Shown here in pieces: positions 12,331 through 19,039 of a stretch of DNA of 48,392 nucleotides (positions are counted from its first letter, which is position 1; each line of letters begins with the position of its first letter). Below the pieces are notes generated by a model that worked only from the letters and a program-made list of their open reading frames with translations, was not told the origin of the DNA and did not search any database. The stretch covers positions 1 to 48,392 of the forward strand of contig DASWRM010000049.1 of NCBI GenBank assembly GCA_036403155.1, written 5' to 3'. The stretch is from Gaiellales bacterium (GTDB taxonomy: Bacteria > Actinomycetota > Thermoleophilia > Gaiellales > JAICJC01). Position numbers and translations under genes: made by a program.

Positions 12331-13413
12331 CTACGCCGCGGTTGCGGCCGCCGTCTGCAGGCGGGCGCCGAGCAGCCCCAGCACCGCGGCCTCCTCGCGG
12401 GTCAGCCCTGTCAGGTCGCTCGTCAGCTCCTCCGCCGCGTGCTCGGCGAGCAGCGAGATCAGCGTGCCGTCGAGGTGGGCCTCGAACACGTCCGGGTGCA
12501 CGTAGCACTTGCGGCACACCGCCGGCGTGTTGCCGAGCCGGCTCGCCACGGATTCGACCGCCGACACGATGTGCCTGTTCGCCTGCGTCTTCGAGGTGAA
12601 CGCGCCTAGGTCGTGCAGCGCCCAGGCCGCGAGCACCGTCCCCGTCCACGTACGGAAGTCCTTCGCCGTGAAGTCGGAGCCCGCGATCTCGCGGATGTAG
12701 TCGTTCACGTCGGCGGAGTCGACGTCGACCACCTCGCCCTCGTCGTTCACGTATGCAAACAGGTCCTGGCCCGGCAGATCCTGGCACCCGCGCACCACAC
12801 GGGCGACGCGTGCGTCCTCTATTGCGATGTCGTGCACCTTGCCGCTCTTGCCTTTGAACCGGAACGACAGCCTCGAACCCTCGACCTCGACGTGAGATTC
12901 ACGTATGGTGGTCAGGCCGTACGAATCGTTCTGCCTGGCGTACTCCTCGTTCCCCACCCGGATCGTGGTCTCGTCGAGCAGCCGCACGACCGCGGCCAGC
13001 ACGCGCTCCCGCGACAGGGTCGTTCGCGTCAGGTGCTTCGAGATCTCGCGGCGTATCTGCGGCAGCGCGCGGCCGAAGGCCAGCATCCGGTAGTACTTGG
13101 TCTCGTCGCGCACCTCCCGCCACCGCGGGTGGTAGCGGTACTGCTTGCGCCCGCGGGCGTCGCGCCCCGTCGCCTGCACGTGCCCGTTGGCCGAGGTGGA
13201 GATCCAGACGTCCGTCCAGGCGGGCGGGATCGCGAGCGCGCGGATCCGCTCCAGCTGCTCACGATCCACGATCGTCGCGCCGTCCGGCCCCGTGTACTGG
13301 AACCCCTTCCCGCGCTTTCGCCGCTGGATGCCGGGCCGGCGGTCGCTCACGTACCGCAGCCCGGCCGCCTTCGCAGACTCGCGCGGGTCGTCCGGGAGCC
13401 CCGCGTCCACCAT
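12331..13413 (-). CDS. DNA topoisomerase IB (poxvirus/eukaryotic type)
   Basis: A protein of about 360 aa that relaxes supercoils through a 3'-phosphotyrosyl intermediate. N-terminal domain: SDRRPGIQRRKRGKGFQYTGPDG. Core: ALAIPPAWTDVWIS, then YRYHPRWREVRDETKYYRM. Catalytic domain: RVGNEEYARQNDSYGLTTIR, FKGKSGK (Lys), FRTWTGT and the active-site tyrosine in CRKCYVHP. All are typical of bacterial type IB enzymes. Start choice is open: ATG 13413 (used here), GTG 13437 one base after the upstream stop, or 13464 overlapping it. The gene is 25 bases or less from the formate dehydrogenase operon and may be co-transcribed. Confidence 0.92.
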   Translation of the reverse strand: MVDAGLPDDPRESAKAAGLRYVSDRRPGIQRRKRGKGFQYTGPDGATIVDREQLERIRALAIPPAWTDVWISTSANGHVQATGRDARGRKQYRYHPRWREVRDETKYYRMLAFGRALPQIRREISKHLTRTTLSRERVLAAVVRLLDETTIRVGNEEYARQNDSYGLTTIRESHVEVEGSRLSFRFKGKSGKVHDIAIEDARVARVVRGCQDLPGQDLFAYVNDEGEVVDVDSADVNDYIREIAGSDFTAKDFRTWTGTVLAAWALHDLGAFTSKTQANRHIVSAVESVASRLGNTPAVCRKCYVHPDVFEAHLDGTLISLLAEHAAEELTSDLTGLTREEAAVLGLLGARLQTAAATAA

Positions 13414-13438
13414 GTCCTGCACCGCCACCGCGGCCACG

Positions 13439-14389
13439 CTAGACGCCGTTCCCGCGCTCCGCAAGCCGCCGGCGCTGCGGCTCCACCGTGTAGCGAGGAT
13501 CGCGCGCGCTCTCGAACCCGGCCTTGAAGATCGCGAACCGCTCGAACGCCGCGCCGGCGAGCATCATCCCCGCACCGGCCCGGCGCACCAGCCCCTTGCC
13601 GGCGGCCACCCCCACCAGCCCGAGGGCGGTCGACGCCTTCGCCGCCCGCATGTACCGGCCGGACGGCCCGCTGTGGTACGGCTCGCCGACCATCCCCAGC
13701 CGCTTCTCCATCGCGTGTGAGAGACCGAGCCCAGCAACGCCGCCCATCACCGCGAGCCGCCGTGCCGGGCCGGTCGAGCCCTCGTGGCCGAACAGCACCG
13801 CCGCGGCCCCCGCGGTTGCACACGACGACGCCGCGAACACCGCCGGCAAATCCTCGTGCGCGTCGTGCCACACGGGCACCGCGGTATTGCCGATCAGCGC
13901 CGCCGTGTAGGTCGAGAGCGCGGGGCCGAGCAGCCCGGCCGCCGTCTGCGCCGTCACCCGCACCCGCGGCATCACGCCGAACACCTCGCATGCCGTCGCG
14001 ACGCTCTGCGCCCCGCCGCTGCCGGCGAGGATCCAGGATCCCACGCTCATCGGCGATGTCGGCTTGAACATCCGCAGCATGTTCAGGAACCGTGCCGGCC
14101 GGCCGAGGTCCTTGATCAGCAGCACGGGGCTCACGTTGACCGCGGCGAAGGCGACCAGCGCCGACGTCCGCGCGAGCCGGCGGTTGCCCATGATCGTCGC
14201 GCCCAGCGCCAGCGTCGACGAGGCGCCCGCGAGCCCTCCCGTGAACAGGTACCAGCCGATCTCGGGCTTCCACGCCGGCGGCTTGATGATCGGATGCCCG
14301 TAGTACGAGTCGCGAGTGGGCTGCGTCGCCGACGACATGTCGACGGGCCCGTAGTAGGTCGGCTGCGATTCCTCCGGCGGCTTGCTCAT
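13439..14389 (-). CDS. NrfD/PsrC-type membrane subunit of formate dehydrogenase
   Basis: A 316-aa integral membrane protein with about eight hydrophobic helices. It is of the NrfD (polysulfide reductase membrane subunit) family and should pass electrons from the iron-sulphur subunit to menaquinone. Family features include IGWYLFTGGLAGASS near residue 43-57 and LLIKDLGRPARFLNMLRMFKPTSPMSVGSW. The ATG at 14389 overlaps the beta-subunit stop (ATGA) and is preceded by a strong GGGAGGTG. A longer upstream frame is just antisense-like Arg/Gly sequence. NrfD replaces the cytochrome b subunit (FdnI) of enterobacterial enzymes. Confidence 0.88.
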   Translation of the reverse strand: MSKPPEESQPTYYGPVDMSSATQPTRDSYYGHPIIKPPAWKPEIGWYLFTGGLAGASSTLALGATIMGNRRLARTSALVAFAAVNVSPVLLIKDLGRPARFLNMLRMFKPTSPMSVGSWILAGSGGAQSVATACEVFGVMPRVRVTAQTAAGLLGPALSTYTAALIGNTAVPVWHDAHEDLPAVFAASSCATAGAAAVLFGHEGSTGPARRLAVMGGVAGLGLSHAMEKRLGMVGEPYHSGPSGRYMRAAKASTALGLVGVAAGKGLVRRAGAGMMLAGAAFERFAIFKAGFESARDPRYTVEPQRRRLAERGNGV

Positions 14390-15219
14390 CGCCACCTCCC
14401 GACCAGCGACACCGTCACCGCGGCCGCGAGCCCCGCCGCCGCGACCCCGACCGCGCGCCACATGGCCGGCAGGTCGCGCGTCGTCACCACCGGGTCGGGC
14501 GGCAGGCCGTACACCTCCGGCTCGTCCAGCAGCAGGAAGAACGCCCCGAACCCACCGACGCCGTCCGAGCCGTCACGCCCGTACAGCCGCGCGCTCGTCT
14601 CGCCCTGCGCCTGGAGCTGGGCCACGCGCTCGTCCGCCCGCTCGTGCAGCTCGTCCAGCGGCCCGAACTGGATGGACTCGGTCGGGCACGCCTTCGCACA
14701 TGCCGGCGTCATCCCGTCCTGGAGCCGGTCGTAGCAGAGCGTGCACTTCCACACGCGGCCGTCGTCGTCCAGCTCCCGCTTGTCGAGCACGCCGAACGGG
14801 CACGCGGGCACGCAGTACCCGCAGCCGTTGCACACGTCCTCCTGCACGACCACCGTCCCGAACTCGGTGCGGATCAGCGCACCGGTGGGGCAGACGTCGA
14901 GGCAGGCCGCGTGGGTGCAGTGCTTGCACACGTCCGAGCTCATCAGCCAGCGGAACCCCTCGGTCGTCCCCGGCTCCTCGACCGCGACCTCCTGCTCGAC
15001 GAACGCGACGTGACGCCACGTGTTGGCGCCCAGCTCGCCGGTGTTGTCGTATGACTTGCCCGTCCAGACGAGCCCGTCCTCGGGCACCATGTTCCACTCC
15101 TTGCAGGCCACCTCGCAGGCCTTGCAGCCGATGCACACGCTGGTGTCGGTGAAGAACCCCATGCGCGGCTCGGTCTCGGAGCCGTAGCTGGCGTGGCCGT
15201 CGGCGTGCTCTTCGATCAC
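14386..15219 (-). CDS. Formate dehydrogenase beta (four-cluster ferredoxin) subunit
   Basis: A 277-aa electron-transfer subunit. Sixteen cysteines fall in four ferredoxin motifs (CIGCKACEVAC, CKHCTHAACLDVCP, CNGCGYCVPACP, and CTLC with CAKACP), so four [4Fe-4S] clusters. One C-terminal transmembrane helix (about residues 250-270) anchors it, as in FdnH. The start is GTG, overlapping the alpha-subunit TGA (GTGA); its own TGA overlaps the NrfD ATG. These overlaps show tight translational coupling of all three subunits. Confidence 0.93.
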   Translation of the reverse strand: MIEEHADGHASYGSETEPRMGFFTDTSVCIGCKACEVACKEWNMVPEDGLVWTGKSYDNTGELGANTWRHVAFVEQEVAVEEPGTTEGFRWLMSSDVCKHCTHAACLDVCPTGALIRTEFGTVVVQEDVCNGCGYCVPACPFGVLDKRELDDDGRVWKCTLCYDRLQDGMTPACAKACPTESIQFGPLDELHERADERVAQLQAQGETSARLYGRDGSDGVGGFGAFFLLLDEPEVYGLPPDPVVTTRDLPAMWRAVGVAAAGLAAAVTVSLVGRWR

Positions 15220-18200
15220 GACGGGATCTCCCCGTGGAATCCCGGGCCGATGCGTCCCGGCCTGATGTCGCAGGTGCCCGCCTTCACTTCCTGGATGTGG
15301 ACGTTGGGGTCAAGCGCGATCGACGTCACGTCGTTCGCTGCGCTGCCGGTCGACAGCCCGCGCCAGCCCCAGTGGTAGGGCAGGCCCACCTGGTGGAGCA
15401 CCGCGTCGCCGATCCGCAGCGGCCGCAGGCGCTCGGTCACCATGACGCGGGCCTCGATCTCGGCCCGCTCGGTCGCGATCGTCGCCCACCCGCCGTGCTC
15501 GAGGCCGCGCTCGCGGGCCAGGTCGGGGCTGACCTCGCAGAACATCTCGGGCTGCAGCTCGGAGAGGTACTCGAGCGTGCGGCTCATGCCCCCGGCCGTG
15601 TGGTGCTCGGTCAGGCGGTACGTCGTGAGGGCGTACGGGTAGCGGCTCGCGTCCGCCGCGCCGTTCGACGGGTTGTAGTGGTTGCCGTTGCGTGGGTACA
15701 CCTGGCGCACCGGGTTGGCGCGCTGGCCGTAGAGCGGGTTGCCGAACGGCGACTCCTCCGGCTCGTAGTGCGTCGGCAGCGGCCCATCGACCAGGCCGGC
15801 CGGCGCGAACAGCCAGCCGCGGCCGTCAGCCTGCATGATGAACGGCCGCTTGCCGCCGATCGCCGCCGGCCCCTTCGCCCCGTCCGGGGGCACGTAGTCC
15901 GGCGGCTTGGTCGGCTCGAAGTCGGGCACGTCCGGTCCCGTCCAGGCGCCCTGGTCGGCGTCCCACCAGACCAGCTTCTTGCGCTCCGACCAGGGCCGCC
16001 CCTGCGGATCGGCGGACGCGCGGTTGTAGAGGATGCGGCGGTTGGCAGGCCACGCCCAGCCCCATTCCGGCGCGAGCCAGTTCTGCTCGGTGTGCGGCTT
16101 GCGGCGCGCGGCCTGGTTGACGTCGTCCTTGAAGACGCCGCAGTAGATCCAGCACCCGCAGCTGGTCGTCCCGTCGGCCTTCAGCTCGGTGTAGGCGGGG
16201 AGTGCCTTGCCGTCGGGGCCGACGCCGTTGATCTCGCGCAGCACCGCCTCCGCGCTCGGGTCGCCGGTCTCGGCCGAGGTCGGGTAGTACCACTGCAGCT
16301 GCTGGATCGGCCGGTCGCGCTGCTCCTCCGAGCTCGCGAGCTTCTGCCGGATCCGGCGGCCCAGGTGGTAGTAGAACCACAGTTCCGACCGGCAGTCGCC
16401 CTTCGGCTCGATCGCCTTGTGGTGCCACTGCAGCAGCCGCTGGGTGTTCGTGAACGAGCCGTCCTTCTCGACGTGCGAGGCGGCCGGCATGAAGAACACC
16501 TCCGTGCCGATGTCCTCGGTGCGCAGCTCGCCGCGCTCGATCTCGGGGCCGTCCTTCCAGAACGACGCCGTCTCGATCTCGAACAGGTCGCGGACGACCA
16601 GCCACTTCAGGTTCGCCATCGCGAAACGGTGCAGGCGCCCGTTCGCGGACCCGACCGCCGGGTTCTCGCCGGCGACGATCATCCCCTCGACCTTGCCCTC
16701 CAGCATGTGCAGCGTCGCCTGGTAGATCGAGTGGTCGCCGGTGATCCGGGGCAGGTAGTCGAAGCAGAAGTCGTTGCCCTTGGTCGCGTTCGGCCCCCAG
16801 TACGCCTTCAGCAGGCTGACCGTATACGCCTCCATGTTGCCCCAGAAGCCGGAGGGCGACGTGTTCATCTCGACGAATTGCCGCAGGTCCTGGTGGGCCT
16901 GCGCGTGGGGCATGGGGATGTAGCCGGGCAGGATGTTGTAGAGGGTGGGGATGTCGGTCGAGCCCTGGATCGACGCGTGCCCGCGCAGCGCGACGATGCC
17001 GCCGCCCGTGCGGCCCATGTTGCCGAGCAGGAGCTGGATGATCGCGGCCGCCCGGATGTACTGGACGCCGACGGTGTGCTGCGTCCACCCGACCGAATAG
17101 ACGATCGCGGACGTCCGCTCGCGGCCCGAGTTGTCGCAGAGCGCCTTGGCGACGCGCAGGAAGTCCTCCCTCGGCACACCGCACGCCTGCTCGACCAGCT
17201 CGGGCGTGTAGCGCTGGTAGTGCTTGCGCAGGAGCTGGAACACGCAGCGCGGGTGCTGCAGCGTGCGGTCCTCTCGCGGCGGCTCGCCGTGGTGGAGCGA
17301 TGCCCCCTGGCCGCCGTGTCCCGACTGCTCGCCCTGGTTCGCGCCCTGCTCCCGCTGGCCGGCGCTCGAGTGCACCTCCATGCCCTCGTACTGCCAGCTG
17401 GTCGTGTCGTACGTGCCCTTCTCCGCATTCCAGCCCGAGAAGAACCCGTCCAGGTCCTCGGTGTCGGCGTAGCGCTCGTCGATGATCACCGGCGCGTTCG
17501 TGTACTCGACGACGTACTCGCGGAAGTCGCGGTTGTTCTCGAGTATGTAGTTGATGATGCCGCCCAGGAACGCGATGTCACTGCCGGCGCGCAGCGGGAC
17601 GTGCTTCGTCGCCACGGCACTCGTGCGCGTGTAGCGCGGGTCGACGTGGTAGACCTCCGCGCCCCGCAGCTTGGCCTCCATCACCCACTGGAACCCGACC
17701 GGGTGGTTCTCGGCCATGTTCGACCCCATGATCAGGATGCAGTCGGAGTGCTGCAGATCCTGCTGGAAGTCGGTGGCGCCTCCTCGTCCGAACGATGTCC
17801 CCAGACTGGGGACGGTGGAGGAGTGTCATATGCGTGCCTGGTTCTCGACCTGGACGAAGCCGAGCGCGGTCATCAGCTTCTTGATGCAGTAGTTCTCCTC
17901 GTTGTCGAGCGTGGCACCGCCAAGGTTGACCACGCCGAGCGAGCGCTTGAGCTTGCGCCCCTCGCTGTCGACGTCCTCCCAGGTGGCGGCGCGGCTGGCG
18001 ATCACCCGGTCGGCGATCATGTCCATCGCCTCGTCGAGGCCGAGGTCCTGCCAGTCGGCAGAATGCGGGGGACGGTACTTGACCCTGTACTCGCGGAGCC
18101 TGCTGGTGACGAGGTTCTTCGAGGCGGAGCCCTTGGGACAGAGCCGGCCGCGCGAGATCGGGCTGTCGGGGTCGCCCTCGATCTGGCTGACCTCGCCGTT

Positions 18201-18401
18201 CTGGACGTAGACGTGCTGGGCGCAGCCGACGGCGCAGTACGGGCAGATCGAGTCGACGACGTGGTCGGCGTGCTCGGTGCGTGGCCGGATGCCGGCCGTG
18301 TGTCGCGAGCGTGCCGCCGATCCGCGGCCGGTCGGGTCGTCGCCCTTGAGCTGCTGGAGCACGGGCCACCGCCGAATCGTTCCACGGATGTCGACGCTCA
18401 C
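15216..18401 (-). CDS. Selenocysteine-containing formate dehydrogenase alpha subunit (in-frame UGA)
   Basis: One 1061-aa molybdopterin enzyme interrupted by an in-frame TGA at 17828-17826 (codon 192). Before it: the [4Fe-4S] cysteines C53, C56, C60 and C88, ending ..ENQARI. After it: HSSTVPSLGTSFGRGGATD, then GSNMAENHPVGFQW, exactly the FdhA/FdnG sequence around the active-site Sec/Cys. No frame change is needed, and a SECIS-like hairpin follows. Reading TGA as selenocysteine gives a full-length enzyme; reading it as stop gives two useless halves. It oxidises formate to CO2 and hands electrons to the beta and NrfD subunits. A Gly/Gln/Glu-rich insert sits about 110 residues after the Sec. No classical Tat signal is visible (only IRRWPVL), so location is unclear. 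Confidence 0.93.
17797..17828 (-). promoter_or_regulatory. UGA(Sec) codon and SECIS-like hairpin
   Basis: Reading the - strand, TGA (17828-17826) is followed after 12 bases by GTCCCC-AGTCT-GGGGAC (17813-17797), a perfect 6-bp stem with a 5-base loop. The loop begins 18 bases after the TGA. In E. coli fdhF the apical loop AGGUCU begins 17 bases after its UGA, from memory. A possible lower stem pairs CTCCTC just after the TGA with GAGGAG beyond the hairpin. This is the layout SelB recognises in bacteria. Confidence 0.8.
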
Positions 18402-18462
18402 TATGGGCGGTGCGTACCCCCGGGCAGCGGGTGCAAAACGGCGCGCGAGCGCTTCGGCGCAA

Positions 18463-18468
18463 TAGGGT
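18463..18468 (+). promoter_or_regulatory. -10 box of the GNAT gene in the 74-bp divergent gap
   Basis: TAGGGT ends 7 bases before the ATG at 18476, with GGAGG directly before the codon. The gap 18402-18475 must also hold the formate dehydrogenase promoter; no clear -10 is visible for that side (TACGCA lies 9 bases from its GTG). Confidence 0.5.
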
Positions 18469-18475
18469 TTGGAGG

Positions 18476-19039
18476 ATGGTGATCCGCGTCGTGGATCGAA
18501 CGGATTCCGAGCGGCTCGCGGCGGCCTTCCCCGAGTCGCCGGGCACGCCGGAGAACCGGCATCTGGCGCGCTTCGCTCTCCAGGAGCGCGGCGTCCTGCC
18601 GGCGCTGGCCGCCTGGGACGATTCGCGGCCCGTGGGCTACTGCATCGTCCGTTGGCGAGTGCCTGGCGGGGGGGCCACCGACCACGCGAGGGCGCTCGGA
18701 TGTGCGGAGCTGGGCGACCTGTTCGTGGCCGAGGCTGCGCGAGGGCGAGGCATCGGCCGAGCGCTGGTCGAGGCGGCCGAACGCCACGCCATGGAGCAGG
18801 GGGAGGGGGCCATGGGCCTCGAGGTCACGGCCGCCAATCCCGAGAACGAAGCGGCACGGAGGCTCTACGAGAGGCTCGGCTACACGGACGCGGGGTTCGG
18901 CGAGTTCATCACCGGCTACAGCTACTTCCTCCCCGACGGCACCGAGTGCCGGGATGAGGAGGCACATCGCTACCTGATCAAGCGCCTGCCGCCGGCCGGA
19001 ACGGGTGCCGAGCGGGCCGGGGGCCGGTCGCCGGGCTGA
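18476..19039 (+). CDS. GNAT-family N-acetyltransferase
   Basis: A 187-aa acetyltransferase. After AELGDLFV comes the acetyl-CoA loop AEAARGRGIGRALVEAAERH (about residues 82-101), then LEVTAANPENEAARRLYERLGY, all standard GNAT motifs. The C-terminal 30 residues (GYSYFLPDG through the Arg-rich end) are less typical. Part of its 3' end (18943-18963) recurs exactly at 19403-19423 downstream. Substrate unknown. The ATG is supported by the promoter and GGAGG. Confidence 0.82.
   Translation: MVIRVVDRTDSERLAAAFPESPGTPENRHLARFALQERGVLPALAAWDDSRPVGYCIVRWRVPGGGATDHARALGCAELGDLFVAEAARGRGIGRALVEAAERHAMEQGEGAMGLEVTAANPENEAARRLYERLGYTDAGFGEFITGYSYFLPDGTECRDEEAHRYLIKRLPPAGTGAERAGGRSPG

Follow-up and report, generated by a model that had tools for sequence, protein, structure and literature searches.

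A formate dehydrogenase operon of an uncultivated Gaiellales bacterium with an in-frame UGA very probably read as selenocysteine

The formate dehydrogenases of sulfate reducers (PDB IDs 1h0h and 8cm4) and Escherichia coli FdnG are exported with a Tat signal, and the membrane subunit of E. coli formate dehydrogenase N is the cytochrome b556 subunit FdnI. Among bacterial selenoprotein families, formate dehydrogenase is the most widely distributed (PMC13188914). The same source describes the bacterial SECIS element (bSECIS) by a loop of 3-9 nt that has a G among its first two bases, a stem of 4-16 bp, a spacing of 16-37 nt from the UGA and a minimum free energy (MFE) at or below -7.5. According to PMC5330540, which cites Mukai et al. 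2016, the Geodermatophilaceae have a tRNA-Sec with the anticodon CUA and a formate dehydrogenase in which Sec is encoded by UAG. Here we analysed a stretch of 48,392 nucleotides from a Gaiellales genome bin (hereafter the window), and we are almost certain that it encodes a three-subunit respiratory-type molybdenum/tungsten formate dehydrogenase (FdhA, FdhB and FdhC) in which UGA codon 192 of fdhA is translated as selenocysteine.

The fdhA gene (15216..18401, minus strand) starts with GTG at 18401 and stops with TGA at 15218-15216, encoding a formate dehydrogenase alpha subunit of 1061 residues with a predicted Sec at position 192. The frame contains only one internal TGA, at codon 192 (17826..17828, minus strand), preceded by 191 codons and followed by 869, and no other frame-breaking change was found in the 1061 codons. 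The residues spanning the TGA are ENQARI-U-HSSTVPSLGTSFGRGG. An earlier note on this DNA had read 15216-18401 as a single gene with an in-frame UGA at codon 192; re-reading the frame showed its coordinates and residues to be exact, and homology running through the TGA bears out the single gene. Naive ORF calling yields a product of 191 aa and another of 837 aa, counted from the next ATG. The note's prediction of a truncated 191-aa protein and a headless one is thus fair for naive calling, and NCBI already holds a model for the family (NF041513). The annotation is thereby corrected to one fdhA gene that naive calling would split in two. A frame of 1082 ATG/GTG/TTG-initiated codons also lies antisense to fdhA (15234-18482, plus strand); it probably results from G+C-rich codon bias and cautions against using ORF length as evidence. 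We therefore dropped frame length, which proves nothing in this G+C-rich DNA, and the evidence for one gene is the homology that continues across the TGA.

Residues 8-1051 of the 1061 in FdhA match the NCBIfam family NF041513 of actinobacterial formate dehydrogenases with 1886.9 bits (cut-off 1400), and TIGR01553 is matched with 959.5 bits (cut-off 814.2). Against the PDB, FdhA scored best with the formate dehydrogenases 1h0h, 9qm0, 8cm4 and 1kqf, the majority of which are annotated there as selenocysteine-containing. The alignment with 1h0h_A runs through the TGA and places the modified residue (X) of that structure in the TGA column, while 9qm0 has Cys in this column. The UGA-encoded position thus aligns with an active-site Sec or Cys followed by His, as the earlier note had expected for position 192. 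The N-terminal [4Fe-4S] motif C-x2-C-x3-C-x(n)-C can be read directly from the translation (CPYCAVGCAQ...LCPKG). The nearest of the aligned relatives is that of the same-family genome G193, with 76% identity.

The codon at the Sec site was then compared across homologues. A survey of the same class covered 299 genomes, 49 of them with a match above the family cut-off. At least one in-frame TGA lay inside such a match in 46 genomes (the window's own included); the exact codon position was read for the genomes whose loci were fetched. In the fetched loci, TGA stood in the codon-192 column in all but two, with 27 relatives besides the window's own gene, and the two exceptions had Cys (TGC in G280 and TGT in G160). 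Because the TGA occupies the same column in 27 independently assembled relatives, sequencing error is out as a general explanation. When 80 loci of named genomes, almost all from Actinomycetota, were added, the readable active sites came to 109, including the window's own gene (L037). These comprise 92 TGA, 11 TAG and 6 Cys codons (4 TGC and 2 TGT), and no other codon was seen. All 11 TAG copies (L082, L085, L089, L100, L108, L112, L118, L122, L123, L135 and L138) come from Blastococcus, Modestobacter and Geodermatophilus, genera of the Geodermatophilaceae, and keep a hairpin after the codon. The six Cys homologues (L033, L035, L102, L124, L132 and L134) have lost it.

In the window, this SECIS-like hairpin (17797..17813, minus strand) starts 12 nt after the UGA and has the form GUCCCC-AGUCU-GGGGAC, i.e., six base pairs and, within the loop, a closing A-U pair. 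Its MFE, with the A-U pair counted, is -10.7 kcal/mol, and its loop, G position, spacing and energy all lie within the bSECIS limits (PMC13188914). No SECIS family matched the hairpin at the Rfam gathering score; the sole Rfam match in the stretch was a weak one to SECIS_3 over 17773-17831, with 18.7 bits (E 0.038) where the gathering score is 63. Taken alone, the hairpin was not significant against shuffled sequences (z-score -0.61), and about 21% of synonymous recodings of the region would also form a 6-bp stem. We therefore dropped single-sequence folding as evidence and used comparison across homologues. The bSECIS rules alone do not discriminate either, since a relaxed version is also satisfied by 179 of 1040 fdhA codons and by the stop TGA of the gene (spacing 37, -8.7 kcal/mol). 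Among the homologues, all but one of the 103 stop-codon copies (102) have a hairpin within the limits (loop spacing 17-19), and none of the six Cys copies does. One stem pair joins the wobble base of a Val codon to that of a Gly codon; it takes the forms CG, TA, TG, GC and GT, and pairing is kept in 102 of the 103 Sec copies. The U of the loop likewise occupies a wobble position and does not vary in any of the 103. This U is kept regardless of the rarity of the codons in the aligned fdhA genes, where GGT makes up 6% of Gly codons and AGT 2.4% of Ser codons. Because the window's hairpin is unremarkable by itself and related sequences are not independent, the contrast between Sec and Cys copies is our main argument for the hairpin, an element absent from the earlier note that adds support to its selenoprotein reading. 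With UGA, UAG or Cys occupying this single site and the hairpin lost from Cys copies alone, the family provides a clean natural comparison supporting a SECIS element, although the principle is long established.

The earlier note had also inferred that the genome carries selA, selB, selC and selD, and the search of the bin (3.2 Mb, 79 contigs, 98% complete) bore this out. The tRNA-Sec, with the anticodon tca, scored 63.8 bits (cut-off 47), and family searches found selA (494 bits), selB (309 bits) and selD (389 bits), all over the curated cut-offs. Within the bin, none of the tRNA-Sec and sel genes shares a contig with fdhA, and the estimated contamination is 3.1%. Considered as co-occurrence with phylogeny ignored, selA was found in 43 and tRNA-Sec in 37 of the 46 genomes whose FdhA-family match holds a TGA (own included), versus 0 of 20 (selA over the cut-off) and 1 of 20 (tRNA-Sec) genomes without an FdhA-family match. 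No selA and no tRNA-Sec were detected in the two Cys genomes G280 and G160. Both were also absent from the assemblies of TGA-bearing G077 (97% complete), G091 and G291, most simply because of assembly gaps.

The fdhB gene (14386..15219, minus strand) encodes a four-cluster ferredoxin-like beta subunit (TIGR01582, 192 bits, below the cut-off of 334.7) with a hydrophobic stretch near its C-terminus; the gene begins with a GTG that shares bases with the stop codon of fdhA (GTGA). The fdhC gene (13439..14461, minus strand) encodes a membrane subunit of the NrfD/polysulphide-reductase type (PF14589 at 46.1 bits and PF03916 at 44.7 bits, each above its gathering score). Directly downstream of the operon lies a gene for a DNA topoisomerase IB with a eukaryotic-type catalytic core (12331-13464, minus strand). 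Inspection by eye found no RR motif leading into a hydrophobic segment at the N-termini of the window's FdhA or the aligned relatives, so FdhA lacks the mark of an FdnG-type periplasmic formate dehydrogenase N. Because no Tat signal is recognisable, we infer from the sequence that the enzyme is membrane-anchored, with FdhA facing the cytoplasm. A foreign origin was considered for the contig and rejected: positions 19.5-22.6 kb of the window are collinear with the same-genus genome G215 at 71%, and the operon matches the same-family genomes G193 and G283 at 79%, with no sign of contamination. G215 itself has no copy of this fdhA.

Contig C36 of the same bin encodes another formate dehydrogenase, in which a TGA occupies the corresponding site (CNRT-U-HAPSVVGL); its genes lie at L032:7676-9850 and L032:4875-6032 (both minus strand), and the in-frame TGA is at L032 9370-9368. 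This enzyme is apparently of the NAD type. Its catalytic subunit seems to be split, with the molybdopterin part and the Sec site in one gene and the [4Fe-4S] domain in a separate NuoG-like gene that sits beyond a NuoE/F fusion. After this TGA, too, comes a hairpin, with the loop GGUCU; its energy of -6.8 kcal/mol narrowly misses the -7.5 limit.

Could the TGA in fdhA be a nonsense mutation in a pseudogene, or a miscalled Cys codon? A single base separates it from the TGC and TGT codons of six homologues, but a stop codon stands at this site in 103 copies (92 TGA and 11 TAG), the hairpin after it is conserved at wobble positions, and the remaining codons show no other frame-breaking change. Conservation of the TGA refutes this explanation in practice, and we consider its chance negligible. 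We give no more credence to a UGA read in another way, whether by genome-wide reassignment to Trp or Gly or by ordinary near-cognate read-through, for which no support was found. The fdhA gene itself ends in a TGA that overlaps the start of the next gene, the aligned residue is Sec or Cys and never Trp or Gly, and the tRNA-Sec (tca) is present together with selA, selB and selD. Translation of codon 192 as selenocysteine is thus the reading that we retain.

A further alternative leaves FdhA a genuine selenoprotein but holds that the sel genes of the bin partly belong to another organism, so that the selA/selB pair serving FdhA would be ambiguous. The bin contains selA-selB twice, with a complete selA and a partial selB at the start of contig C61 (L022:1-1897) and a partial selA and a complete selB at the end of contig C74 (L023:7428-10001). 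The two copies have diverged, with SelA about 62% and DNA 75% identical. In relatives such as G193, a single selAB locus carries both flanks, one matching C61 and the other C74. The first 123 bases of C61 (L022:1-123) repeat a selB piece that is already present at 111-593; the sequence of this contig end suggests that it may be misassembled or chimeric. The double selA-selB may reflect either a tandem duplication that the assembly has broken up or a bin in which two related organisms are mixed. The contamination estimate, the divergence of the copies at the two contig ends and the single locus of the relatives speak for mixing. However, on both contigs the flanks are closest to same-genus G215 (C74 at 83/79%; C61 in a 7.4-kb collinear block at 76%), so neither contig is clearly foreign, and a tandem selAB duplication would give the same picture. 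Mixing thus has a substantial though minority chance, and it would qualify our explanation rather than replace it. That a tandem duplication (SelA identity ~62%) left each pair specialised for one Sec formate dehydrogenase, the membrane type described here or the NAD type on C36, is improbable.

For the selenocysteine-containing enzyme that we favour, SelD would produce selenophosphate and SelA would convert Ser-tRNA-Sec(UCA) into Sec-tRNA-Sec, while SelB would bind the hairpin that begins 12 nt past the UGA and then deliver Sec-tRNA-Sec to the ribosome. Insertion of Sec at position 192 is what the sequence evidence leads us to expect, and both selenium in the FdhA protein and formate dehydrogenase activity are predicted. 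At the bis-MGD site, the selenium would be a ligand of Mo or W, and oxidation of formate to CO2 (or reduction of CO2) would take place there. Electrons would pass from FdhA through FdhB and the membrane subunit, probably to the quinone pool. Very probably, then, this uncultivated actinobacterial lineage depends on selenium for its formate metabolism.

The comparison with described systems supports FdhA as an additional member of the known family of selenoprotein formate dehydrogenases, which is of low surprise. It matches NF041513 over its full length, the same Sec site occurs in nearly all relatives, and nothing essential differs. The catalytic subunit family is common to FdhA, 1h0h and 8cm4 of sulfate reducers, E. 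coli FdnG (1kqf) and TIGR01553; FdhA shares with 1h0h, 8cm4 and FdnG the Sec position followed by His and the [4Fe-4S] motif, but differs from them in a low-complexity insert near residues 340-372 and in having no recognisable Tat signal. In its operon, an NrfD-type subunit takes the place of the cytochrome b556 subunit FdnI of E. coli. The hairpin agrees with the bSECIS model (PMC13188914) in every limit, whereas its link to Rfam is the sub-threshold SECIS_3 match. The UAG-Sec formate dehydrogenases of the Geodermatophilaceae (Mukai et al. 2016, cited in PMC5330540) belong to the same enzyme family, with the same site and hairpin, but the window's fdhA uses UGA and a tRNA with the anticodon UCA where they use UAG.
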